Origin: Planctomycetota bacterium
GTDB taxonomy: Bacteria > Planctomycetota > Phycisphaerae > Phycisphaerales > UBA1924
Reading direction: 5' to 3'
Assembly (NCBI GenBank): GCA_039819165.1
Contig: JBCBSM010000001.1
Location: 868,001 to 932,000 of the forward strand
DNA length: 64,000 bases
Under the pieces are notes generated by a model. It worked only from the letters and a program-made list of their open reading frames with translations. It was not told the DNA's origin and did not search any database. The number at the start of each line of letters is the position of its first letter. The stretch's first letter is position 1. The translations under genes were made by a program, and so were the position numbers. This document shows positions 37,741 through 55,789 of the stretch, piece after piece.

Positions 37741-38136
37741 GTGTTCGAGATCGCCGTCACACGGACCTTCCGCGCAACCCACGCCGTCCGCATCGGCGGC
37801 GCGATGGAGGAGCCGCACGCGCACGATTGGCGAGTGCACGCAACCATCGCCGGCGGCGCCCTCGACGACGACGACCTGCTGTGCGACTTCCACGCCGTCG
37901 AGGCCTCGCTCGACGCGATGCTCGACCGCTGGCGGGACGCCGACCTCAACCACCAGCCGCCCTTCGCCGGCGGCCCGCTGCCCACGGCCGAGCGCGTCGC
38001 CGAGGCCATCGCCGCGGGCTTGGCCCTCGCCCTCCGCGGCGTGCTGCCCGAGGGCGCCCACGTCCGCCGGGTCGCGGTGACCGAGGCGCCGGGCTGCGAG
38101 GCGGCCGTCACGCCCGGAGAAGCGGCCCAGCGATGA
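37741..38136 (+). CDS. 6-pyruvoyl-tetrahydropterin synthase-like protein lacking catalytic residues
   Basis: The GTG gives a 131-residue protein with the PTPS/QueD fold: TRTFRATHAVRI, PHAHDWRVHATI, LLCDFHAVEASLDAMLD and PTAERVAEAI, ending in TEAPGCEAAV. The zinc histidines (THAV and HAHDW) remain. The catalytic cysteine that normally lies 3-4 residues before HGH is replaced (AMEEPHAH), and the LDHxxLN motif reads RDADLN, so the His of the Cys/Asp/His triad is also gone. Ordinary PTPS or QueD chemistry is therefore unlikely. It overlaps ppk1 by ATGA. Confidence 0.75.
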   Translation: MFEIAVTRTFRATHAVRIGGAMEEPHAHDWRVHATIAGGALDDDDLLCDFHAVEASLDAMLDRWRDADLNHQPPFAGGPLPTAERVAEAIAAGLALALRGVLPEGAHVRRVAVTEAPGCEAAVTPGEAAQR

Positions 38137-40325
38137 CCGACGCAACCGCCCGCAACGCCACCAGCAGCACGCCCGCCGGCGCCGCCACCGGGAGCGTGGC
38201 GCCGTCCGACGCAGAGGCCTTCTTCAATCGCGACCTGTCCTGGCTCGCGTTCAACCAGCGGGTGCTGGAGCTGGCCGAGGATCCCCGCACCCCGCTGCTG
38301 GAGCGCGTCAAGTTCCTCGTCATCTTCGCGAGCAATCTCGACGAGTTCATCATGAAGCGCGTCGGCCTGATCCGCCGTCAGGTGGACGCGGGCATCGAGC
38401 ATCCGTCCCGCGACGGGCTGGCGCCCCGCGAGCAGCTCACTCGGGTGCGCGAGCGCGTCGAGGCGCTGCAGGAACGCCAGGCCGCCTGCTGGGCGGACGC
38501 CCTCGTGCCCGCGCTCGCGCTCGAGGGCATCCGCGTGGACGAATACGCCGCGCTCGAGCCGGTGCAGCGGGAGGGGCTGGACAACTGGTTCCACCGCCAG
38601 GTCTTCCCGCTGCTGACGCCGCTGGCCATCGATCCCGGCCACCGCTTCCCGTTCATCTCCAACCTCTCCGAGAGCCTGGGCGTGCTGCTCGGGGAGCGCG
38701 CCGACGGCCCCGTCCGGCGGGGCGAGCGGTTTGCCCGCCTGAAGATCCCAGACGGCATCCCCCGGATGGTCCGCGTCGACGATCCGACGGCCGGCAGCGG
38801 CGTCGTGCCTGAAAGCGGCCTCACGCTGGTCCCCCTCGACCAGGTCATCCGCGCCAACCTCGACAGCCTCTTCCCGGGCGTGGACGTGCTCGCCACGACG
38901 GCGTTCCGCGTCACGCGGTCGGCCAGCGTGGAGACCGACGAGGACGCCCACGATCTCCTCGAGAGCGTGCAGGACGAGCTCCGAAAGCGCCGCTTCGCCC
39001 GCCCCGTCCGCATGGAGATCGCCGAGCAGCCCCACGAGGAGCTGGTCACCTTCTTTGCGTCCTCGCTGGGCCTGAACACCGAAGACGTGTACGTCCGCAA
39101 GGGCCCGCTGGAGTACGACGACCTGATGTCGATCGTCTCCATTGACCGCCCGGACCTCAAGGACCCACCCTGGACGCCCCGCACGCCGCCGCGGCTGATC
39201 GCCCGCCGCACGGACATCTTCCGGGCGGTGCAGGAGGGCGACATCCTCGCCCACCACCCCTACGACAGCTTCGACGAATCGGTCCGCGCCTTCGTGTCGC
39301 AGGCCTCGCGGGACCCCGACGTCCTGGCCATCAAGCAGACGATCTACCGCACCAGCCGGGACTCGCCCTTCGTCCGCTCGCTCATCCGCGCCGCCGAGGC
39401 CGGCAAGCAGGTCGCCTGCATGGTCGAGCTGCGGGCTCGCTTCGACGAGCACCGCAACGTCTCGTTCGCGCGGACGCTCGAACGCGCGGGGGTGCACGTT
39501 GCCTACGGCGTGGTCGGCCTGAAGACCCACTGCAAGTGCTCGCTGGTCATCCGCCGCGAGGATGCGGGGCTGCGGGCCTACGCCCACGTCGGCACGGGCA
39601 ACTACCACCCCGCCACCGCGCAGCTCTACACCGACCTCTCGCTGCTGACCTGCGACCCGAGGATCACCGGCGAGGTCGTAGAGCTCTTCAATGCCATGAC
39701 GGGCGTCTCGGTCAAGAGCGACTATTCCCAGTTGCTGGTCGCCCCGACCACCATGCGGCCGCGCTTCGAGGACCTCATCGACGCCGAGATCGAGCACGCC
39801 CGCGCGGGCCGGCCGGCCCGGATCTTCGCGAAGATCAATTCGCTGGAGGATCCCGACATCACCCGCCTGCTGTACGCCGCCTCGCGGGCCGGCGTCCGCG
39901 TCGACCTGGTCGTCCGCGGCTTCTGTTGCCTGAGGCCGGGCGTCCCGGGCCTGAGCGACAACATCCGCGTGGTCTCGGTCGTGGGTCGCTTCCTGGAGCA
40001 CTCCCGCATCTTCCACTTCGCCGGCGGCTCGGACGATCCCCTCGCCGGCCACTGGTTCATGGGCTCGGCCGACTGGATGTACCGCAACCTCAACAACCGG
40101 CTCGAGGCGGTGTGCCCCATCTACGACCCCGACGCGCGACGCCAGCTGGTCGAGATCATGCAGGCCAACCTCCGCGACGGCCGCTTCGCGTGGGACCTCG
40201 CCCACGACGGGGGCTACCGCCGGCACGACGACGCCGACCGCCCGGGCACCTTCGCGACGCTGATGCAGGCGGCCCTCGACGCCGAGGACGAGGCCCGCCG
40301 CCGCCTCACAGAGCCCCAGGACTAG
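38133..40325 (+). CDS. ppk1: Polyphosphate kinase 1
   Basis: PPK1 makes polyphosphate from ATP at the membrane. The 730-residue protein has FFNRDLSWLAFNQRVLELAED (N domain), FASNLDEFIMKRVGL, the phosphorylated histidine in YAHVGTGNYHP (about residue 485) and the second conserved His in HSRIFHFAGGS (about 622). The RARFDEHRN segment of the catalytic core is present. The start ATGA overlaps the upstream PTPS-like gene, and neuB starts four bases after the stop, so the three form an operon. A longer frame upstream is a shadow of the PTPS gene. Confidence 0.96.
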   Translation: MTDATARNATSSTPAGAATGSVAPSDAEAFFNRDLSWLAFNQRVLELAEDPRTPLLERVKFLVIFASNLDEFIMKRVGLIRRQVDAGIEHPSRDGLAPREQLTRVRERVEALQERQAACWADALVPALALEGIRVDEYAALEPVQREGLDNWFHRQVFPLLTPLAIDPGHRFPFISNLSESLGVLLGERADGPVRRGERFARLKIPDGIPRMVRVDDPTAGSGVVPESGLTLVPLDQVIRANLDSLFPGVDVLATTAFRVTRSASVETDEDAHDLLESVQDELRKRRFARPVRMEIAEQPHEELVTFFASSLGLNTEDVYVRKGPLEYDDLMSIVSIDRPDLKDPPWTPRTPPRLIARRTDIFRAVQEGDILAHHPYDSFDESVRAFVSQASRDPDVLAIKQTIYRTSRDSPFVRSLIRAAEAGKQVACMVELRARFDEHRNVSFARTLERAGVHVAYGVVGLKTHCKCSLVIRREDAGLRAYAHVGTGNYHPATAQLYTDLSLLTCDPRITGEVVELFNAMTGVSVKSDYSQLLVAPTTMRPRFEDLIDAEIEHARAGRPARIFAKINSLEDPDITRLLYAASRAGVRVDLVVRGFCCLRPGVPGLSDNIRVVSVVGRFLEHSRIFHFAGGSDDPLAGHWFMGSADWMYRNLNNRLEAVCPIYDPDARRQLVEIMQANLRDGRFAWDLAHDGGYRRHDDADRPGTFATLMQAALDAEDEARRRLTEPQD

Positions 40326-40329
40326 GCCG

Positions 40330-41391
40330 GTGCGCATCCGCGATCGCGGGATCGGCGCCGGCGAGCCGCCCTACGTCATCGCCGAGCTGGGCGTCAACCA
40401 CGATGGCTCCGAGGCGACGCTGCACGCGCTCATCAACGCGGCCGCCAATGCCGGCGCCGACGCGGTCAAGCTGCAGCTCTTCCGGGCGGACGACCTGCTC
40501 GCCGCGGCCGCACCCCTCGCCGGCTACCAGCGGCGGTCGGGCGAGGACGACGCCGCCTCGATGCTCCGGCGGCTGGAACTCTCGCTCGACGCCGCCCGCG
40601 GCGCGATCGACGCCGCGCACGCCGCCGGCCTGCACGCCATCGCCACGGTGTTCGACCTGCCGCTGGTCGCGTCCGCCGCCGCCCTGCCGCTCGACGCGTT
40701 CAAGACCGCGTCGCCCGACATCGTGCACCGTCCGCTACTCGATGCCCTCGCCGCCACCGGCCGGCCGCTCATCGCGAGCACCGGGGCGGCCACCCGCGAA
40801 GAGGTCGCCCGCGCGATTGGCTGGCTGCGGCCCGCCCGGCAACGGCTCGCCGTACTCCAGTGCGTCAGCGCCTATCCGACGCCGTCCGAGCACGCCGCCG
40901 TTGCCGCGCTCCACGATCTTGCGACACTGCACGACGGCCCCGTCGGCTACAGCGACCACACCGCCGATGCCGACACCGGCGCCCTCGCGGTGGCCCTCGG
41001 CGCGCACGTGCTCGAGAAGCACCTGACGCTGGACAGGACCGCCCCCGGCCCCGACCACGCGGCATCGATCGAGCCAGCGGAGATGGCCGAGTACGTCCGG
41101 CTGGCGCACGCGGCATCCAAGGGAGATTGGACGCACGATCCCGGCGATCCGCGGCTTGGCTCGGGCCGCAAGGCCGTGCTGGACATCGAGGCCGACGTCC
41201 GCCGCGTCGCCCGCCGCTCGATCGTCGCCGCCCGGAGCCTCGACGTCGGCGTCGTACTGCGCGCCGGCGACCTCGCCTTCAAGCGGCCCGGCGGGGGTCT
41301 CGAACCCTGGCAGGATGGCGACCTGCTGGGCCGTGCTCTAGCCGTTGACGTCGCCGCGGACCAGCCGCTGTCGCTCGGCCACCTGCTGTAG
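40330..41391 (+). CDS. neuB: NeuB-family nonulosonate synthase (sialic/legionaminic/pseudaminic acid synthase)
   Basis: The enzyme condenses PEP with an N-acetylated hexose to make a nine-carbon nonulosonic acid. The 353-residue protein starts at GTG. It has YVIAELGVNHDGSEATLHAL, ADAVKLQLFRADDLL, FKTASPDI, IASTGAATREE, VLQCVSAYPTP, GYSDHTADADTGALAVALGA, EKHLTLDRTAPGPDHAAS and a C-terminal SAF antifreeze-like domain (about 290-353, ARSLDVGVVLRAGDLAFKRPG). Whether the product is sialic, legionaminic or pseudaminic acid cannot be told. It is third in the PTPS-ppk1-neuB operon and overlaps the convergent ligase gene by 54 bases. Confidence 0.85.
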   Translation: MRIRDRGIGAGEPPYVIAELGVNHDGSEATLHALINAAANAGADAVKLQLFRADDLLAAAAPLAGYQRRSGEDDAASMLRRLELSLDAARGAIDAAHAAGLHAIATVFDLPLVASAAALPLDAFKTASPDIVHRPLLDALAATGRPLIASTGAATREEVARAIGWLRPARQRLAVLQCVSAYPTPSEHAAVAALHDLATLHDGPVGYSDHTADADTGALAVALGAHVLEKHLTLDRTAPGPDHAASIEPAEMAEYVRLAHAASKGDWTHDPGDPRLGSGRKAVLDIEADVRRVARRSIVAARSLDVGVVLRAGDLAFKRPGGGLEPWQDGDLLGRALAVDVAADQPLSLGHLL

Positions 41392-46864: not shown

Positions 46865-47164
46865 CTACTCGATGACCTTGGGATCGGCAAGCATGGCGTC
46901 GATCGTGGCCTCGATACGCTCAGAAGTCTCGTAGCGGCCACCCGCGATCGCCTCGCGAACCCGTGCGACGACCTCCGGGCGGAAGCCGTCGCTCGAACGA
47001 TCCGCGCGGGCCTGCGGCGACAATTCCACGCGGTCCGGCGTGCGTCGCGACGCGTCTGCCGTCCGGCCTGGCTGGTCCCCGGACGATGCCGGCCCCCGCT
47101 TGACCGGCCTCGGCTGCAAGTCGCCCGCGCTACCACCCGTCGTGATCTGCCCGATGTCCGTCAT
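46865..47164 (-). CDS. flgM: FlgM-like anti-sigma-28 factor
   Basis: From the ATG the product is 99 residues. The C-terminus (DRVELSPQARADR, then RPEVVARVREAIAGGRYETSERIEATIDAML) matches the FlgM pattern (VxLSxxA...IxxGxYxxxxxxIAxxM). FlgM holds sigma-28 (FliA) inactive until the flagellar hook is finished and FlgM is exported. Its presence implies a flagellar system elsewhere and gives context to the Maf-like gene 2 kb away. No fliA or flagellar structural gene is in this window. Confidence 0.65.
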   Translation of the reverse strand: MTDIGQITTGGSAGDLQPRPVKRGPASSGDQPGRTADASRRTPDRVELSPQARADRSSDGFRPEVVARVREAIAGGRYETSERIEATIDAMLADPKVIE

Positions 47165-47533
47165 GTGCCACACTCTCCGAAGCCCGTGTCTACCTGGTTT
47201 CGCAAATCCTGCGTTCGCACCTCGCGCCGCCTCCGGCCGCACGCACACCTCTGCACGACCACACGAATAGCGATGCCGGAGCCACGCTCCGGCCGCATCG
47301 TGCGGCTCTTTCGTCATCCATTACGGAGTGGGAACTCGGCCTTCGGCGTCGCTCCACCACCCCGTCCCTGGGGCACGATTAGTATCGACGGGGCATGCCC
47401 TCGGGCTCCAAAGATCGAAAGCCGCTCGAACGGCTCGCGAGGCTCGAATTCGGGCGATGGAGATCGAATACCGGCCGCGAAAACCGCCTCCGCAGCGACG
47501 GATCCGGCGATCGCGACATTTCGGAGACGCCGC
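47165..47533. other. Divergent intergenic region, about 370 bases
   Basis: This gap separates flgM (leftward) from the lipoprotein gene (rightward). It is less GC-rich than the genes around it. It holds two hairpins (GCCGGAG...CTCCGGC at 47275-47293 and the terminator-like one at 47292-47311) but no open frame with coding character. Promoters for both genes should lie here; I could not identify convincing -35/-10 pairs. Confidence 0.6.
47292..47311 (+). terminator. Terminator-like hairpin in the flgM divergent gap
   Basis: GCCGCA and TGCGGC pair over 6 bases around a TCG loop and are followed by TCTTT on the plus strand. No rightward gene ends just before it, so it may stop antisense transcription or act as a leader attenuator. 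Confidence 0.3.
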
Positions 47534-48391
47534 GTGAAAAAGATTGGGCTTTGTTCGGAAACCCGCTCGACGCCCGGGCTTGCCTCGTGCAGGATCGCGC
47601 GGATCGCCCTGCTGCTTTCCGCCGCGGCGCTGGCCTCCTGCGCGGCCGATCCCCAGCCGACCCGGCCCATCGGCTCCTTCGCCGATCTCACCGACGCGCC
47701 CGAGACCGCCCGCGACCAGGACGCATGGACCGTGGCGATGGCCGCATTCCGCGGCCCCCGCGCGCAGGAATTGGCGCAGGCCACGCTCGCGCGCGCCACC
47801 GCCGAGGGAGGCCTCCGCGGCGCGCGGCTCGAGCCCCGCAACGAGGCCATCCTGCTCGCCTTCGGCCGCTTCGCCGGCCCCGACGACCGCGAGGCCCAGG
47901 CGGCGCTCGAGCGCGTCCGCGGCGCGCAGATCGGAGGGGTCCGCCCCTTCGCCGCCGCGGTGCTCGCGCCGCCCGAGCCACCCACCGGCTCCGTGGCCGA
48001 GTACGACCTCACCAACGTCGCGAGCTACTACGGGCCGGGATTCGATTACACGCTGCAGATCGGCGCCTACGGCCGCAACGACGGCCGCCCGCCGTCACCC
48101 TCCGACCGCCGCAGCGCACGCGAGGCCGCCGAAGAGGCCGTCGCGATCCTGCGGTCCGAGGGCGAGTTGGCGTTCTACTACCACGGCCCCAACTTCAGCC
48201 ACGTCACCGTCGGGCTCTTCAACGCCGACGAGTTCGACGCCCAGAACGGCGTCTTCCCGCCGGCCTTCCTCGACCTACAGCGAAAGTTCCCGGTCGATCG
48301 CATCAACGGCCAGGAGCGCCGCGTCCGCCGGCCGGGCCAGCGGGAGGCCCGCGCGGTGCAGACCTTCCTGATCGCCATCCCCGCGAGCTAG
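47534..48391 (+). CDS. Lipoprotein with C-terminal SPOR-like domain
   Basis: The GTG after CGGAG gives 285 residues. The signal peptide has lipobox LASC (about residue 34). The mature part starts with an acidic helical region and ends in a domain (DYTLQIGAYGRNDGRP, EAAEEAVAILRSEGELAFYY, SHVTVGLFNADEF) whose order of strands and helices looks like a SPOR peptidoglycan-binding domain, which would place it in the outer membrane against the wall. The SPOR call is inference. Its TAG shares bases with the stop of the convergent gene. Confidence 0.6.
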   Translation: MKKIGLCSETRSTPGLASCRIARIALLLSAAALASCAADPQPTRPIGSFADLTDAPETARDQDAWTVAMAAFRGPRAQELAQATLARATAEGGLRGARLEPRNEAILLAFGRFAGPDDREAQAALERVRGAQIGGVRPFAAAVLAPPEPPTGSVAEYDLTNVASYYGPGFDYTLQIGAYGRNDGRPPSPSDRRSAREAAEEAVAILRSEGELAFYYHGPNFSHVTVGLFNADEFDAQNGVFPPAFLDLQRKFPVDRINGQERRVRRPGQREARAVQTFLIAIPAS

Positions 48392-49026
48392 CCGTCGAAG
48401 GAACCGACGCCCTGGATCCACATGGGCTCGAGCTCGAAGCACCGCCACGGTCCATCGCCGTCGCGCTCCCAGTGCAGCCTCCAGATGGAGCCATGGGCCA
48501 GCGAGCCGCGGATCTCGACCCGCACACGCAGCTGCGTGCGGGCCACGCCGGGCCCGTCGAGGCTGGCCTGCAGGTTGTACACCGACCAGTCCTCGATGGG
48601 GTACTGCCGCTCGAGTCTCGCATCGACTGCGCTCAGCATGTCCTCGCGTCCCGAGACCCTCTGCAGCACGCGGGCGATCGCGCCGCTGACCTCGAGCGAC
48701 ACGTCCTCGGCCAGCAGGCCGCGGAGCCGGTCGGTGTCGGCGTCGGCCGCCGCGCCGATTAGCTCCCGCGTGCGCTCGCGGAGTAGCTCTCGCTCGGTCT
48801 GCACGAGGGAGCCCGCCGCCAGCACGCCGCCCGCGAGCGCGACGGGCGCCAGTGCCCACAGCGATCGCGCGCCCAGCCGGCCCGTGCGGTTCTGCACCAG
48901 GAGCACGCCGATGGCCACGAGCAGCAGCGCGATCGCCGGCAGCAGCGGCTGCTCGAGCACGAAGCGGGACAGCAGCGGGCCCGAGGGCAGCGGATCGAAG
49001 CTCGGCGGCGCAATCACGTCGTTCAT
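48388..49026 (-). CDS. Membrane protein with C-terminal NTF2-like domain
   Basis: The 212-residue protein has two N-terminal membrane helices (PLLPAIALLLVAIGVLLV and LWALAPVALAGGVLAAGSLV), a polar helix and a C-terminal domain of about 120 residues (DTDRLRGLLAEDVSLEV, AHGSIWRLHWERDGDGPWRCFE) with the layout of SnoaL/NTF2-like pockets. I do not recognise a family. The function is unknown; the stop overlaps that of the convergent lipoprotein gene (CTAG). Confidence 0.6.
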   Translation of the reverse strand: MNDVIAPPSFDPLPSGPLLSRFVLEQPLLPAIALLLVAIGVLLVQNRTGRLGARSLWALAPVALAGGVLAAGSLVQTERELLRERTRELIGAAADADTDRLRGLLAEDVSLEVSGAIARVLQRVSGREDMLSAVDARLERQYPIEDWSVYNLQASLDGPGVARTQLRVRVEIRGSLAHGSIWRLHWERDGDGPWRCFELEPMWIQGVGSFDG

Positions 49027-49165
49027 GGCACTTCCCTCGCCGCGATGACCCCTCGGAGCACCACGCTCCCGCGGGGCTACAGGCTATTCTGCCGCCTATC
49101 CGATGCTGTTCCTCGTGCGGAAGGCCCCCACGCGCACCGCACGACACCCAACGGAGCCGCCACCC

Positions 49166-52100
49166 GTGCCCGACCCCGGCATCCTCGAACGCAACCTCGC
49201 CGCCCTGCGGGCGACCTCTCCCGATGCGGCACGGGCCGTCGCAGATGCAGCGCCCCATCCCGGAATCTCCTTCGCGCCGACGGACGACGGCGTGCCGACC
49301 GCCACCCTCGCCGCCGGCGGCACCGAGCACCTGCTCGCGTCGTCCCGTCGCCCGCGGCGAGAGGCCGAACGCCTCGCCGAGTCCGTCGACCCCCGCAACG
49401 CCGCCACGGTCGCGGTCCTCGGCTTCGGCCTGGGCTACCACGTCCGCGCGATCGCCGACCGCATCGGATCGGCCGGTCTGGTCCTGTGCTTCGAGCCCGA
49501 CGTTCCGCTGCTCCGGGCCGTGCTCGAGCGGGTCGACTGCAGCGACTGGCTGGGCGGCGGCGACCTCATCCTGGTGCACGACGCCGGCGACGCGAGCGCC
49601 ATCTCCCGCCGGCTGCACGGCCTGGAGGGCGCCCTGGCGCTCGGCGTGCAGATCATCGCGCACCCGCCCAGCGTGCAGCGACTGGGCGATTCGGCGGCGC
49701 AGTTCTCCCGCCGCTTCACCGAGATCATCAACGCCGCCAAGACGTCGATCGTCACGACGCTCATGCAGTCCGAGCAGTCGATGGCCAACGCGCTGCGCAA
49801 CGCCCGCGCCTACGCGAGCCAGCCGGGCGTCGAGGACCTCCGCGGCGCGCTCGCCGGCACGCCCGCGATCGTCGTGAGCGCCGGCCCGAGCCTGGCCGAG
49901 AGCATCGATGCGCTCGCCAAGCCGGAGGTCCGCGAGCGGGCGTGCATCATCGCCGCCCAGACCGTGCTGCACCCGCTGCTCGAGGCCGGCGTCCGCCCCC
50001 ACTTCGTCACCGCGCTGGACTACCACGAGATCAGCCGCCGCTTCTACGAGCAGCTCACGCCCGACGACGTCGAGGGCGTCACGCTCGTCGCCGAGCCCAA
50101 GGCCAACCCCGCGATCATCAATGCGTGGCCCGGCGCCGTGCGGCTTGCGGCCGATGGCGTGCTCGAGCGGCTGCTGAACGCCCACGGCGTCGATCTCGGC
50201 GGGCACCACGCCGAGCTGCCCGCGGGCGCCACGGTCGCGCACCTGTCGTACTACCTCGCCCGGTTCCTGGGCTGCGATCCGGTGATCCTCGTGGGCCAGG
50301 ACCTCGCGTACACCGACGGGCTGTACTACGGCGCCGGCGCCGCCATCCATCGCGTGTGGGCCGCAGAGCTGGGCGACTTCCGCACGCTCGAGATGATGGA
50401 ACTCGAGCGGATCCTGCGGGCGCGGCACATGCTCCGCCAGACCACCGACCGCGAGGGCCGCACGCTGTACACCGACGAGCAACTCCAGAACTACCTCGTG
50501 CAGTTCGAGCGGGACTTCGCCACCGACGCCGCCCGCGGTCTGTCGGTCATCGATGCGGGCCGCGGCGCCGCCAAGGCCCACGCAGAGCCGATGAATCTGA
50601 ATGTAGCGCTGGCGCAGCATCCCGCCGTCGGCGTACACCTGCCGCCGACGCCGGCGGACAGCGGCGCCAACGACGAGGCCGTCGACCGCCGGCTGCGGGA
50701 GATCGCCGAGCAGGCCCGGCAGGTCGGCCGCCTCTCGCTCGAGACGTTGGCCCTGATGAAGCAACTCGATCCGCACGGCGATGCGGCCAACGCCCGCCGG
50801 CTCGTCGGCGAGATCCATGCCATCCGCGACCGCGTGGAGAAGCTCCATCCCGCGTACTGGATGGCGCAGTACCTCAACCAGACCGGCGGCCTCAGGCGGG
50901 CCCGCGCCGATCGCGCCATCGCCCTCGAGATGGACGGCGCCGATCCCCGCGAGGTGCAGGCCCGGCGGGCCGAGCGCGACGCCGACAACCTGCAGTGGCT
51001 CGCCGATACCGCCGACCGCCTCGCCCGCATGCTCGAGGACGCCGCGAGCGGCGACGCGCCCCTGCCGCTCCGCGTGCATGCCCGGCCGCCGGCGGAGGCC
51101 CGGCTGCCCGCCGTCGTCTGGTTCGATCCGCGCCGCGGCGGGCTGTTCCACGAGCGGGACCTGCTCCGCCCCATCGCCGGCGACGATTCGATCGCCGACG
51201 TCACGCTGCGGTCGCTCGCCCGCTGCGACCGGGTGTCGGACATCGTGCTCGTCGCGACCGACGTCGACGCCGCTCGACGCGTGGCCGCCCGCACCGGCAA
51301 CGCCGCTCGCATGCACGTCCGCTCCGCGCCCGACGGGCTGGACACACGTCGGCGCTGGATCGCCGCCGCTCGCGCGTTCTCGCCCGCGAGCTTCCGCGGT
51401 GGGCTCGCCTCGCTCACGCCCCACGACGAGTGCTTCGATGCCGCCACCACGGCGGCGATCATCCGCGAGTTCGGCGCACCCGGCGCACTCGTGCTCGCCG
51501 CGGACTGGGCGCTCGTCGATCCCGCGCTGACCGACGCCGTCGCCGAGCGGATGCTCGAGGACCCCGACGCCCGCCACGTCGCCTTCGCGCAGGTCCCCGC
51601 CGGTCTGGCGGCCTGCGCACTCGCGCTGCCCGCGTGCGACGAGCTGGCGATGTCCCCCCCGCATTTGCCCGGCGCGACCATCGGCGGACTACTGGCCTAC
51701 CTGCCGCACGCGGCCCGGACCGATCCCATAGCCCGGCCAATCTGCGTCACGACTTCGCCGCCGCTCCGCGATCTCGGCCGACGGCTCATCCCAGACAGCC
51801 CCGATCGCGCCGCCACGCTGGCCGAGGCCCTCCACGTGGCCGCCGCGGGCAATCTCGACCCGCACGAACTGCCCGACATGCTCGGCGATGCGCTGCAGCG
51901 GCCCGCGCAGCTGCGGGCCATCCTGGGCGAGGACGCCGACGAGGGCCAGATCGACCGCGTGGTGGCCTTCGCCCGCGGCGCACCGGACGCGGCGATCACC
52001 CTCGACTGCCGCTACGGGGGCTATGCCGAATGGGTCGACGGCTTCGTGCACCGCCTGGTGGACGCCGGCGCCGCGTCGGTGCACGTCCGCACGCTCATGG

Positions 52101-52450
52101 CGGGCGGACCCTCGGAGGCCGATCGGCTGGCCCGCAGCGCCGCCGGCGTCATCAGCGTCGACATCCAGGATCCCGCGTTTCCGCCGCCGTTCGACGAGCT
52201 GCGCATGGAACGCGAGGACCGCCCGCGCTGGATCGTGCCCCGCCTCCGCCGCACCGCCGCCACGCTCGAGCAGCTGCCCGAGCGCTACGCGGCGCTGCTC
52301 GCCCGCTACGGCGCGGCCGTCGTCGATCCTCCGGCGCCCGACGAGTTCGAGCGGCTCCGTCCGCTGCCGCTGCCCCGCTCGGCCCGCAGGCGTCTCAACC
52401 TCGAGATCCGGCAGACCAAGGCCAAGTCCGTGCCGGCGGCGCTGGCCTAG
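49166..52450 (+). CDS. Maf-like (DUF115) motility-associated glycosyltransferase with extra C-terminal domain
   Basis: From a GTG with GGAG upstream the protein has 1094 residues (an ATG at 49103 would add 21). The N-terminal 500 residues match DUF115/Maf proteins, which attach nonulosonic acids to flagellin: VAVLGFGLGYHVRAIADR, LCFEPDVPLLRAVL, TPAIVVSAGPSLAESIDAL (about 231-250), VTALDYHEISRRFY and VILVGQDLAYTDGLYYG. From about residue 645 a second domain of about 450 residues follows (PAVVWFDPRRGGLFHERDL, VLAADWALVDPALTDAV), perhaps a degenerate nucleotidyltransferase-like fold. neuA starts four bases after its stop, and a sulfotransferase follows. Confidence 0.82.
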   Translation: MPDPGILERNLAALRATSPDAARAVADAAPHPGISFAPTDDGVPTATLAAGGTEHLLASSRRPRREAERLAESVDPRNAATVAVLGFGLGYHVRAIADRIGSAGLVLCFEPDVPLLRAVLERVDCSDWLGGGDLILVHDAGDASAISRRLHGLEGALALGVQIIAHPPSVQRLGDSAAQFSRRFTEIINAAKTSIVTTLMQSEQSMANALRNARAYASQPGVEDLRGALAGTPAIVVSAGPSLAESIDALAKPEVRERACIIAAQTVLHPLLEAGVRPHFVTALDYHEISRRFYEQLTPDDVEGVTLVAEPKANPAIINAWPGAVRLAADGVLERLLNAHGVDLGGHHAELPAGATVAHLSYYLARFLGCDPVILVGQDLAYTDGLYYGAGAAIHRVWAAELGDFRTLEMMELERILRARHMLRQTTDREGRTLYTDEQLQNYLVQFERDFATDAARGLSVIDAGRGAAKAHAEPMNLNVALAQHPAVGVHLPPTPADSGANDEAVDRRLREIAEQARQVGRLSLETLALMKQLDPHGDAANARRLVGEIHAIRDRVEKLHPAYWMAQYLNQTGGLRRARADRAIALEMDGADPREVQARRAERDADNLQWLADTADRLARMLEDAASGDAPLPLRVHARPPAEARLPAVVWFDPRRGGLFHERDLLRPIAGDDSIADVTLRSLARCDRVSDIVLVATDVDAARRVAARTGNAARMHVRSAPDGLDTRRRWIAAARAFSPASFRGGLASLTPHDECFDAATTAAIIREFGAPGALVLAADWALVDPALTDAVAERMLEDPDARHVAFAQVPAGLAACALALPACDELAMSPPHLPGATIGGLLAYLPHAARTDPIARPICVTTSPPLRDLGRRLIPDSPDRAATLAEALHVAAAGNLDPHELPDMLGDALQRPAQLRAILGEDADEGQIDRVVAFARGAPDAAITLDCRYGGYAEWVDGFVHRLVDAGAASVHVRTLMAGGPSEADRLARSAAGVISVDIQDPAFPPPFDELRMEREDRPRWIVPRLRRTAATLEQLPERYAALLARYGAAVVDPPAPDEFERLRPLPLPRSARRRLNLEIRQTKAKSVPAALA

Positions 52451-52453
52451 CCG

Positions 52454-53221
52454 GTGGCCGATCCCGCGCATCCCGACCCGTCAAAGGACACCCCCGCGAT
52501 CGCGATCATCCTCGCCCGCGCGGGCAGCAAGGGCGTGCCCGGCAAGAACCGGCGACCGATCGCGGGCCGCCCGTGCGTAGCCTGGACGATCGACGCGGCG
52601 CACGCCAGCGAGGCCGTCGGCCGCGTGGGCGTATCCACCGACGACGACGAGGTCGCGGCCACCGCGCTAGAGATGAACGCCGAGCACTGGCCCCGCACGC
52701 CCGCGCTCGCCACCCACGATGCCCGCATCGACGCCGCCGCCGCGGACGCCCTCGACCGCGCCGCCGAGCGCAAGCCAGTGGATCCCCACGCCCTCGTCGT
52801 GCTCCTCTACGCCAACGTGCCCGTCCGGCCGCCGGGCCTGATCGACCGCGCCGTCGCGGTGCTGCGGACGACGGGATGCGATAGCGTGCAGAGCTACGCA
52901 CGCGTGGGCAAGCACCACCCCTGGTGGACCGCCACGCTCGGCGACGGCGGCGTCGTCCGGCCCTGGCACGGCGAGCAACTCTTCAACGGCGTCTACCGCC
53001 GCCAGGACCTGCCACCCGCCTGCGTGCCCGACGGCGGCGTGATCGTCCTCCGCCAGTCGGCGCTGTGTGCCGGCGCTGCGCAGGCAGACCGCCCGCACGC
53101 CTTCCTCGGCTCGGACCACCGCGGCGTCCAGACCGAGCACGGCGACGTCGTCGACATCGACACCGAGGCCGACCTCGCCGTCGCCGAACACCTGCTGCAC
53201 ACCCGTGCGGCGGCGACCTGA
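52454..53221 (+). CDS. neuA: NeuA-like CMP-nonulosonate synthetase
   Basis: The enzyme joins CMP to a nonulosonic acid to give the donor for glycosyltransferases. The 255-residue protein (GTG start) has the signature ILARAGSKGVPGKNRRPI (A-R-x-G-S-K-x-x-x-K-N), VGVSTDDDEVAATA, VVLLYANVPVRPPGLIDRAV and EHGDVVDIDTEADL. It is the second gene of the Maf-neuA-sulfotransferase block, with 3 bases between it and the Maf-like gene, so its product probably feeds that transferase. The matching synthase NeuB is 11 kb upstream. Confidence 0.9.
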   Translation: MADPAHPDPSKDTPAIAIILARAGSKGVPGKNRRPIAGRPCVAWTIDAAHASEAVGRVGVSTDDDEVAATALEMNAEHWPRTPALATHDARIDAAAADALDRAAERKPVDPHALVVLLYANVPVRPPGLIDRAVAVLRTTGCDSVQSYARVGKHHPWWTATLGDGGVVRPWHGEQLFNGVYRRQDLPPACVPDGGVIVLRQSALCAGAAQADRPHAFLGSDHRGVQTEHGDVVDIDTEADLAVAEHLLHTRAAAT

Positions 53222-53236
53222 CGCCTAGGACTCGCC

Positions 53237-54013
53237 ATGGATCGCGTGCTCTGGATCTTCTCGCTGCCCAGGAGCGGCTCGTCGGTGACCGCCTACGCCG
53301 CCGCGCACGCGCTCGGGTGCCCGGTTGCCGACGAGCCCCTCGGCCCCTGGGACCGCACGGGCGAGCCGTACCACTACCCCGCCGAGCAGGCCGACCTGGT
53401 GAAGGCCCATCTGGCGGATCGCTGCATGCTGGAGGAGGTCCAGACCATCACGCTCGCCCAACGCGTGCTCGAGCAGATCGCCGGCCAGAGCAGCACGCTC
53501 GTTGTCAAGCACCCCCACCTGCGTCCGCCGCCGGCCAACTTCCAAGCGGCGTTCCCGACGCACCGGGCGGTGTATCTGGCGCGCAATCCCCTCACGCGGC
53601 TCAATAGCCTGTACGCCCGCGGATGGACCGACGCCCTCCGGCCCAACTACGAGCTGGACCACTACAAGCAATTCGCCGAGTACTGGGGCGACAGCCCGGG
53701 ACACCTCACCTTCGAGCTGCTGCGCAAGAAGCCGCGGCGGTTCTTCCGGGAGCTCTTCGCGGCCTGGGGCATCACCGACGGCCGGCGGCTCGCCGCCCGC
53801 GCCGCCGATTACGCGGCCAACCACTACCACGCCTCATCGCTCGTACAGGAAGAACGCGCGCCCGCCGCCGCGCCCTCGGAGCGTGAACGCTCGCTGCCCG
53901 AAGAGGCCGTGCGGATGTACCTGGCCGATCCCGAGATCCGGCGCTTGATGAAGGCCAACAAGTGGACGCGGCGGGCGAACGCCTACCTGCCGAAATCACG
54001 GGTGAACGCGTAG
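53237..54013 (+). CDS. Sulfotransferase-like protein
   Basis: The 258-residue protein starts MDRVLWIFSLPRSGSSVTAY, containing the 5'-phosphosulfate-binding loop (PRSGSS) of PAPS-dependent sulfotransferases, and later HRAVYLARNPLTRLNSLYARG, the 3'-phosphate-binding type segment (RNPxxRxxS). These enzymes move sulfate from PAPS to sugars, lipids or proteins. It lies 15 bases after neuA in the same direction, so sulfation of the glycan or its carrier is a reasonable inference. No PAPS synthesis genes are here. Confidence 0.78.
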   Translation: MDRVLWIFSLPRSGSSVTAYAAAHALGCPVADEPLGPWDRTGEPYHYPAEQADLVKAHLADRCMLEEVQTITLAQRVLEQIAGQSSTLVVKHPHLRPPPANFQAAFPTHRAVYLARNPLTRLNSLYARGWTDALRPNYELDHYKQFAEYWGDSPGHLTFELLRKKPRRFFRELFAAWGITDGRRLAARAADYAANHYHASSLVQEERAPAAAPSERERSLPEEAVRMYLADPEIRRLMKANKWTRRANAYLPKSRVNA

Positions 54014-54020
54014 CGGAGGT

Positions 54021-55190
54021 TCACCGCGTCGGCACGAACTGGACGGCGACGCCCGCCCACGGCTGCCACGACGCGGGATCCTCCTCCCACCAGAACAGCG
54101 TGGATTCGATCGCCGGCGGCGGCATCGAACCGGCACCGGGCAGCGGATCGCCCGCGATCGCGATGCGGACGCCATCGCCGAGCCGGCCCACCTGGTCGAG
54201 CATCCGCAGCATCGCCTCGGGCGAGCACGCCGCCTCCGCGACGAACACCGTCGGCGTCGAGCGCACGACCCGTTCCAGGTCGCCCACGAGGCCCCCATCG
54301 GCGTGCCCGAAGCCGCCGTCGATCGGACGGAACACCGCCCGTCCGGGCCCGCTCATCGCGGCGATCAGCTCGCCCCCCGCATCGCGCATCCGCCACGCGG
54401 GATCGATCAGCCCCACCGATGCGTCCTCGGCCGCCCTGCGAGAGGCGGCCAGATCGTCCGTCAGCACGACCACGACAAGCCGTCCGTCCATGGCGTGATC
54501 GAGCACATCCTCGGCGGGCATGCCGACCCGCGCCGCGAGCACCTCGGCCCACGCCGGCTCGGGAGCGGCGGCAACCGTGTCCGTTGGGGTCAGGAACACA
54601 ACTTCGCGGGGCGGCGCGTCCGCATCGCCGTCGCGGGCCGCCATCCGCTGCTCATCCTCGGGGCTCTCATCGACCGGATCGTCCGACCCGGCATCGCCGC
54701 CCGCGATGGCGATCGGATCGCCCGGGCTCAGGGGCGGCGGGCCGCTCCGCAGCAAGACCGGCAGCAGCTGCCAGGCCGCGAACGCCACCAGCAGCACCGC
54801 CGCGATGCCCATCGCCGGCTTAAACCATCCGGGGAAGGACGCCAGCGATAGCGGCGGGTCGGCGTGCGACACGCCAACCGGCGAGCCCCGCCCCGCCAGC
54901 ACCAGCAGCGACTGCCGCTCGTGCTCGTCCAGCACCGCCTGCGCGACGCTCGCCGGCGGCTGCGGCACATCGAGCGATCCCAGCGCCGCGCGGTCGATCC
55001 GCATCTGCTCCAGGGCCGTCGCCAGCCCGGGCTCGCCCCGGATCGCCTCATCGATCGCGCGCAGCGACGAACCGGGCGGAGCATCACCCCGCTCGCGAGC
55101 GTCGGCCTCGAGCCAATCGAGCGCGTCGGCCTCGCCCACGCCGCGTAGCCGCGCAATCGCGTCCTCGATGTTGGAGCGTTGCTGGCTCAC
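54021..55190 (-). CDS. Membrane protein coupled to an ECF sigma factor, possible anti-sigma factor
   Basis: The GTG overlaps the sigma factor stop (GTGA), giving 389 residues. The N-terminal 100 residues are helical (IEDAIARLRGVGEADALDWLE), one membrane helix follows (PAMGIAAVLLVAFAAWQLLPVLL, near 120-145) and then an acidic linker and a periplasmic-side beta/alpha domain. Position and topology are those of an anti-sigma factor, but the HxxxCxxC zinc motif of ZAS proteins is missing. It could sense an envelope signal. Confidence 0.65.
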   Translation of the reverse strand: MSQQRSNIEDAIARLRGVGEADALDWLEADARERGDAPPGSSLRAIDEAIRGEPGLATALEQMRIDRAALGSLDVPQPPASVAQAVLDEHERQSLLVLAGRGSPVGVSHADPPLSLASFPGWFKPAMGIAAVLLVAFAAWQLLPVLLRSGPPPLSPGDPIAIAGGDAGSDDPVDESPEDEQRMAARDGDADAPPREVVFLTPTDTVAAAPEPAWAEVLAARVGMPAEDVLDHAMDGRLVVVVLTDDLAASRRAAEDASVGLIDPAWRMRDAGGELIAAMSGPGRAVFRPIDGGFGHADGGLVGDLERVVRSTPTVFVAEAACSPEAMLRMLDQVGRLGDGVRIAIAGDPLPGAGSMPPPAIESTLFWWEEDPASWQPWAGVAVQFVPTR

Positions 55191-55789
55191 CCGTGGTCGT
55201 CTCCCTGCGAGGCCCGCACGCCCGAGCGGCTGCGTTCCAGATCCTCGATGACGCTCCGCAGCGCCGCACGCGCCCGGAACAGCTTGCTCTTCACCGTGCC
55301 GACGGCCACCCCCAGCACGCCCGCGATCTGCTCGTACTCCAGCCCCTGCACGTCCCGCAGCACCAGCACGACCCGATGATCGGGCTGCAGCATCTGCAAC
55401 CCTCGGGCCACCAGCCGCCGCCGTTCGGCCACGTCGAGGCCATCTCCGCCCCTTTGGACGCCCCGAGCGGCCTCGGGTTCCCCATCTTCGGGCCACGCGG
55501 AGCGCGAAGCCGACCGAACCCGTTCCGAACGCAGGTGGGTGTAGCACGCGTTGACGGCAATCCGGTAGGCCCACGTCGACAACGCCGATCGGCCGTGGAA
55601 CTTCTCAAGGCCCGTGAGCACCTTGATGAGCGTTTCCTGCGTGAGTTCGGCGGCGGCGTCTTCGTCGCCGAGGATCCGGAAGCACACGGCGAAGATCGGC
55701 CGCTGGTACCGCTCGACGATCTCGGAGGCCGCCTGGGCGTCGCCCTCGCACGCTCGCCGCACGAGCCGGGCATCATCCTCATGGGCCAC
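55187..55789 (-). CDS. ECF-type RNA polymerase sigma factor
   Basis: The 200-residue protein has sigma region 2 (IVERYQRPIFAVCFRILGDEDAAAELTQETLIKV, GRSALSTWAYRIAVNACYTHLR) and region 4 (LQPDHRVVLVLRDVQGLEYEQIAGVLGVAVGTVKSKLFRARAAL), with no region 1 or 3, as in the sigma-70 ECF group. The GTG start follows GGGAG. Its gene is coupled by GTGA to the membrane partner downstream, the usual sigma/anti-sigma order. Its promoter targets cannot be read here. Confidence 0.95.
   Translation of the reverse strand: MAHEDDARLVRRACEGDAQAASEIVERYQRPIFAVCFRILGDEDAAAELTQETLIKVLTGLEKFHGRSALSTWAYRIAVNACYTHLRSERVRSASRSAWPEDGEPEAARGVQRGGDGLDVAERRRLVARGLQMLQPDHRVVLVLRDVQGLEYEQIAGVLGVAVGTVKSKLFRARAALRSVIEDLERSRSGVRASQGDDHG

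Follow-up and report, generated by a model that had tools for sequence, protein, structure and literature searches.

Maf proteins are flagellin glycosyltransferases that attach nonulosonic acids to serine or threonine residues through O-linkage, and the Clostridium botulinum enzyme (CbMaf) accepts N-acetylneuraminic acid (Neu5Ac), according to PMC11339370. In this work we describe a related locus in a stretch of 64,000 nucleotides (the window) from a planctomycete of the order Phycisphaerales (assembly GCA_039819165.1, a genome of 3.14 Mb in 35 contigs; positions 868001–932000 of contig JBCBSM010000001.1, here C1). A gene for a Maf fusion protein is followed there by a neuA-like gene and a sulfotransferase gene, a trio that an earlier note, made from the DNA letters, had read as one cassette for sulfated nonulosonate decoration of flagellin or another surface protein. 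We consider it probable that the cassette serves the glycosylation of flagellin with a nonulosonic (sialic-acid-like) acid and that the sulfotransferase, present at the level of the genus, acts on the same product.

Like the Maf proteins of Magnetospirillum (5mu5), C. botulinum and Campylobacter, the planctomycete proteins carry PF01973, share the overall fold, have nonulosonate genes as neighbours and co-occur with flagellin. They differ in being fused to, or followed by, a partner with cytidylyltransferase-like and pseudo-radical-SAM (S-adenosylmethionine) parts, in the order maf-neuA-neuB-neuC, and in having no pse or leg aminotransferase gene in the cassette. The biosynthetic genes belong to the same three families as those of NeuC-NeuB-NeuA sialic acid synthesis and are consecutive in most relatives, whereas in the genus studied here they are scattered, and their product would be Neu5Ac or legionaminic acid. 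The sulfotransferase shares its fold and presumed cofactor loops with tyrosylprotein and other sulfotransferases that use 3'-phosphoadenosine-5'-phosphosulfate (PAPS), but it is bacterial, lies beside neuA and has only 12–14% identity to them. Sulfate on the glycans of a swimming filament, together with sulfotransferases, is reported for the archaellins of Halobacterium; that system consists of an archaeal N-glycan on an unrelated filament, with no Maf. Granular sludge contains sulfated and nonulosonate-bearing polymers together (PMC10483923), but neither flagella nor the present gene are connected with them there. A search of the full-text literature, with subscription journals and preprints outside its range, returned no paper devoted to flagellin glycosylation in planctomycetes or Phycisphaerae, none on sulfated bacterial flagellin and none on spiro-SPASM proteins, the family that relatives of the Maf partner resemble. 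New here are the architecture of the transferase and the genus-level sulfotransferase, while the cassette itself is of the old flagellin-nonulosonate kind.

Gene content and conservation of the cassette

The three genes are real and co-directional, all on the forward strand and spaced by 3 and 15 bases. The first (49103–52450) encodes 1115 amino acids counted from the first ATG, and its product clears the Pfam model PF01973 (MptE-like), the central domain of Maf, with 115.9 bits against a cut-off of 34.6. The second (52454–53221, 255 amino acids) encodes a NeuA-like cytidine monophosphate (CMP)-nonulosonate cytidylyltransferase clearing PF02348 with 58.2 bits against 22.6. The product of the third (53237–54013, 258 amino acids) reached 20.6 bits on the sulfotransferase model PF00685, just below the cut-off of 22. 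A PHROGs scan of two proteins gave no match. The GTG at 49166, from which the earlier note had started maf, is a plausible alternative to the ATG at 49103, since residues 1–17 have a predicted local distance difference test score (pLDDT) below 50 and a promoter-like element overlaps the ATG.

The AlphaFold2 model of the whole Maf protein (pLDDT 89.2, predicted template modelling score 0.87) divides into three parts, all encoded on the forward strand. Among the fold matches listed by VIA-align, the Maf half (residues 23–658; 49169–51076) superimposes on the Magnetospirillum Maf 5mu5 with Z 25.9 and a root-mean-square deviation (rmsd) of 7.4 over 529 aligned residues. The following domain is cytidylyltransferase-like (residues 665–934; 51095–51904; Leptospira cytidylyltransferase 6oew, Z 19.4, rmsd 2.9, 220 aligned), and the last part is a radical-SAM-like fold that lacks the CxxxCxxC motif (residues 931–1110; 51893–52432; PqqE, 6c8v, Z 10.9, rmsd 3.2, 171 aligned). 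The Maf fold of 5mu5 was also recovered by Foldseek (E 1.7e-16) and by comparison of our Maf profile A4 with 5mu5 (E 8e-16). On the PseD model NF050051, the protein scored 47.9 bits, under the cut-off of 670. The earlier assignment of the gene as Maf-like fits the first half, but had overlooked the fusion to the second.

To place the cassette among relatives, an order-level sample of 61 genomes (this one and 60 relatives) was searched with the Maf protein. Matches occurred in 57 genomes, 55 of them at E ≤ 1e-111 and two (G042 and G054) near 1e-21. In all 30 fetched loci neuA stood directly behind maf. Among 80 named loci, which had been retrieved by full-length alignment of the fusion, 76 offered 1 kb or more of room, and the same held for 74 of these; L154 and L162 lacked neuA despite the room, and L149, L164, L171 and L190 offered too little room to be counted. 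Behind maf-neuA, neuB was present in 63 of the 71 named loci that offered 2.5 kb, and neuC in 47 of the 66 that offered 5 kb. Across the order the operon usually reads maf-neuA-neuB-neuC, often preceded by flgM, a SPOR-like gene and a gene of the 212-amino-acid type described below. The pair maf-neuA is an old unit whose order is kept far beyond chance, in agreement with the earlier claim that Maf and NeuA belong together. Two named loci of this Phycisphaerales type, filed as 'Cyanobacteria bacterium' (L133) and 'Leptolyngbya sp. PLA1' (L135), probably stem from misnamed or mixed assemblies.

The third gene has a narrower distribution. It lies directly behind neuA in six of the seven genomes of the genus (69–73% identity), and these are the only six of the 30 fetched loci that have it; among the 80 named loci it occurs in two, both of this genus, and is missing from the genus member L127. 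The search for this gene order in relatives thus upheld maf-neuA widely, but maf-neuA-sulfotransferase only within the genus. Because relatives outside the genus keep maf-neuA without a sulfotransferase at that place, a joint role of all three genes can be claimed for the genus only, and the sulfotransferase seems to be a young, genus-level addition to an older cassette.

Despite its score, we accept the identity of this protein on account of invariant PAPS-loop-like residues and its fold. The codons for FSLPRSGSS (53258–53284, forward strand), presumably the 5'-phosphosulfate loop for PAPS, include R12, G14, S15 and S16, invariant in all ten aligned sequences, as are R116, N117, P118, L119, L122, N123 and S124 of RNPLTRLNS (53582–53608, forward strand), which we take to be the 3'-phosphate binding stretch. 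A relative's protein (L056) likewise stayed under the cut-off, with 22.1 bits of the 27 demanded by PF13469. The predicted structure (pLDDT 84.6) shows the PAPS sulfotransferase fold, with the tyrosylprotein sulfotransferases TPST1 and TPST2 as best among the matches listed (5wri, 5wrj, 9wwe, 3ap3, 3ap1, 3ap2 and 8w5z; Z 14.8–13.6, the best with rmsd 3.1 over 207 aligned residues) and other kinds at Z 12.9 and below. A sequence profile, which included a stray row of three residues, found no solved relative at E 10.

The presence of flagellin follows that of Maf closely. In the order-level sample flagellin was found in 56 of 61 genomes, among them all 55 with a strong Maf match, and none of the five flagellin-free genomes (G042, G048, G050, G054 and G058) has a strong Maf. 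In a phylum sample of 149 genomes searched with profile A4, Maf occurred in 32 and flagellin in 83, the latter in all 32 Maf-positive but only 51 of 117 Maf-negative genomes (Fisher p = 3e-10, a test that ignores kinship). Furthermore, maf lies 0.9–9.6 kb from a flagellin gene in at least nine of the 32 Maf-positive genomes (G063, G068, G098, G104, G118, G150, G153, G166 and G184), and G038 carries flgH, flgI, flgK and flagellin genes upstream of maf-neuA-neuB-neuC. Taken together, the conserved order, the co-occurrence and the linkage indicate that flagellin is the likely target of this Maf, as the earlier note had supposed.

We then considered the origin of the C-terminal half. Searched alone, its 465 residues gave nothing over cut-off, and the window's copy had no match to the spiro-SPASM model TIGR04321. 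The corresponding halves or partner proteins of relatives match this model over most of its length, with 159.2 (L226), 133.3 (L071), 94.2 (L233), 59.3 (L068) and 57.3 bits (L060), although all remain under the cut-off of 250, which was reached in none of the 149 phylum genomes. The raw tally of TIGR04321 matches (126 of 149 genomes) was discarded because ten of 14 control genomes match as well and mostly other radical SAM proteins are counted; the follow-up was restricted to eight near-full-length matches. The Maf gene adjoins the spiro-SPASM-like gene in six of these eight loci, which come from other planctomycete groups; in L231 no Maf was seen within the 3 kb of upstream contig, and L233 has flagellin but no Maf. 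In one of the phylum loci (L228, genome G087) two different Maf genes flank the spiro-SPASM-like gene. Within the order, G040, G044, G045, G052, G053 and G056 encode the C-terminal half in a gene of its own immediately after maf, and in G041 maf and its partner gene are on different contigs. The cut-off of PF04055 was exceeded by the copies of L071 (38.4 bits) and L060 (41.2 bits). Still, the cluster motif CxxxCxxC is absent from every copy inspected, whether in the set of 31, among the 16 of alignment A2, in the eight phylum loci or in the 80 named loci (the sets overlap), and according to the alignment the SPASM tail of relatives' copies is gone in this genus. Since the half is a stand-alone gene behind maf in other orders and classes, it appears that a partner gene became fused to maf; the loss of the CxxxCxxC motif would have come early, and the genus would have lost the SPASM tail as well. 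The half looks catalytically dead. It has nevertheless been kept, as judged from 52–57% identity within the genus (59–61% for the Maf half) and from an uninterrupted frame in all 30 fetched loci; it is also uninterrupted in all 80 named loci, a set biased by its retrieval through the full-length fusion. Its most likely role is that of a binding module of Maf.

The remaining biosynthetic genes lie apart from the cassette. The window's neuB (40330–41391, forward strand; PF03102, 216 bits) is the only match in its genome, and the one match to neuC is on the contig of maf, at a distance of 1.4 Mb. The earlier note had counted the nearness of neuB as support for the joint role. In all seven genomes of the genus, however, neuB is immediately behind ppk (domains in 37827–40325 of the window), and only here is it less than 8 kb from maf (7.7 kb); the distance is 57 kb in G004, 80 kb in G003 and 106 kb in G005, and three genomes have it on a separate contig. 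Because neuB follows ppk genus-wide, its closeness is no evidence of linkage, and we dropped that argument.

Proposed function and alternatives

Based on the gene identities, the predicted folds, the conserved order and the flagellin co-occurrence, the chemistry may be pictured as follows, together with the acceptor, the part played by the apparently inactive half and the target of sulfation. NeuC and NeuB would make a nonulosonic acid, which NeuA would activate with CTP. The Maf half would then transfer the sugar from CMP to serine or threonine of flagellin prior to export, with the C-terminal half binding either flagellin or the CMP sugar that it receives from NeuA. Within this genus, the PAPS-dependent sulfotransferase added behind neuA would sulfate the sugar or flagellin itself, most likely the same product. 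Such a pathway would offer a testable flagellin glycosylation system for planctomycetes, a group in which little chemical work exists on the flagella of swarmer cells. It would also bring forward a possible case of a bacterial flagellum bearing sulfate, and a proposed partner role for a spiro-SPASM-like family that has so far been without a function in the literature searched. A bolder version, in which Planctomycetota decorate flagellin with Maf and an obligate pseudo-enzyme partner, a dead cytidylyltransferase joined to a dead radical SAM part of the spiro-SPASM kind that began as a neighbour, later became fused and either brings in the CMP sugar or keeps flagellin in place, and in which the sugar is true Neu5Ac from the NeuC-NeuB-NeuA route, sulfated in this genus, we regard as rather unlikely; if true, it would mean a natural bacterial flagellum that is both sulfated and sialylated, and would give the spirochaete spiro-SPASM proteins their first role, in flagellar glycosylation.

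Several observations weigh against flagellin glycosylation with joint sulfation. The organism's own flagellin genes are on contig C2, not on that of maf, and a flagellin gene lay inside the fetched flank of only one of the 80 named loci, so that the search for flagellin genes nearby, positive in at least nine phylum genomes and in G038, was negative at home. Seven of the nine flagellin-adjacent Mafs are divergent from that of the window (E 1e-15 to 1e-36), G011 (87% complete) gave no Maf match although it has flagellin, the nonulosonate pathway is complete but dispersed in this genus, and the FlgM-like protein upstream of maf scored 22.6 bits on PF04316, under its cut-off of 25. G042 and G054 encode a short, divergent Maf-spiro-SPASM fusion (E about 1e-21) and have neither flagellin, nor neuA nearby, nor a NeuC match. 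Hence Maf might modify a surface protein other than flagellin, for which the separate contigs and these two non-flagellated relatives would speak; but flagellin accompanies Maf in 55 of 55 and 32 of 32 genomes, the genes are linked in several of them, and the two exceptions have neither a nearby neuA nor a NeuC match; we consider another acceptor very unlikely. The sulfotransferase is less firmly tied to the product. Its family occurs in nine of the 61 genomes, namely six genus members behind neuA and G014, G020 and G033, where it lies away from maf; the genus member G006 lacks it, and most Maf cassettes have none. An adenosine 5'-phosphosulfate kinase was found in all seven genus genomes, G006 included, but also in 11 of 14 control genomes and is no specific support. 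The enzyme could thus be merely co-transcribed and act on an acceptor other than the nonulosonate, such as a protein tyrosine of flagellin or of another protein, or an unrelated metabolite, in line with the tyrosylprotein sulfotransferases as nearest folds. Differences in Z below 1 are ties, however, the margin over other sulfotransferases is 1–2 Z and a fold does not reveal a substrate; moreover, the gene starts 15 bases after neuA here and is directly behind it in nearly the whole genus. We therefore rate such an acceptor as a genuine possibility, yet not the probable one.

Two further alternatives concern the C-terminal half and the sugar. A decaying remnant without function would fit the missing cluster motif, the lost SPASM tail and the fact that neither half of the region gives a family hit, but such a remnant would hardly be expected to stay well conserved with its frame intact in all 30 fetched and all 80 named loci (the latter picked by full-length matches), to adopt a confidently predicted fold, and to persist as a separate gene beside maf in other orders and classes; we thus consider it unlikely. 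The choice of sugar is closer to balanced. NeuC passes TIGR03568 (hydrolysing UDP-N-acetylglucosamine 2-epimerase) with 258.7 bits against 235.9, a model that we assume to cover LegG as well, and of the seven DegT-family matches in the genome the two strong ones, the only ones scanned, remain under both the PseC (315.1 and 260.5 of 423.5) and the LegC cut-off (257.9 and 190.2 of 420). Together, these results favour the three-enzyme route to Neu5Ac, as does the presence of A, B and C genes only in the operon. NeuA has the CMP-Neu5Ac synthetases 6ifd and 1eyr as best solved relatives and scored 69.4 bits on the PseF model, far below the cut-off of 205.7. On the other hand, NeuB is closest to SpsE (1vli, 160.6 bits), followed by SiaC (2wqp, 130.5 bits), and falls short of the cut-offs of both TIGR03569 (NeuB_NnaB; 274.2 of 399.65) and PseI (187.5 of 340.25), and NeuC matches a hydrolysing diacetylbacillosamine 2-epimerase (5xvs, 153.6 bits) as closely as it does the human UDP-N-acetylglucosamine 2-epimerase (4zht, 140.2 bits). 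Moreover, PMC11339370 gives pseudaminic and legionaminic acid as the nonulosonates commonly found on flagella. Legionaminic acid or a relative, with NeuC and NeuB acting as LegG and LegI, accordingly has not quite an even chance.

Upstream region and neighbouring genes

The FlgM-like anti-sigma-28 factor (46865–47317, reverse strand) is present near maf as the earlier note had stated, even though its score leaves the assignment of this copy short of the cut-off: the FlgM family was found near maf in ten of 19 fetched 20-kb loci, including other loci of the genus and family, and of the orthologues scanned L064 (38.0 bits) and L065 (28.8 bits) exceeded the cut-off, with no match for L056. Between flgM and maf, and divergent from the latter, lies a conserved unnamed gene of 212 amino acids (48388–49026, reverse strand), a match to which precedes maf in 65 of the 80 named loci. 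A promoter-like TATTC-N(10-11)-CCGATG element (49085–49105, forward strand) precedes the possible maf start at 49166 and recurs in five of the seven genus genomes. It was not found in the organism's own flagellin stretches that were searched, and could just as well belong to the divergent gene; by a simple count, no good sigma-28 or sigma-54 match of a flagellin-type promoter occurs upstream of maf.

Three observations lie beside these results. The sulfotransferase family forms two tandem copies in G033 (L072:8568-10093), away from maf. The short Maf-like fusions of the non-flagellated relatives (L123:4034-6532 in G054 and L124:4406-7300 in G042) are located beside housekeeping genes. Finally, the gene that follows the cassette on the reverse strand of the window (54021–55574), which has no Pfam hit, is kept in the genus loci beside a gene for a sigma factor of the extracytoplasmic function type.

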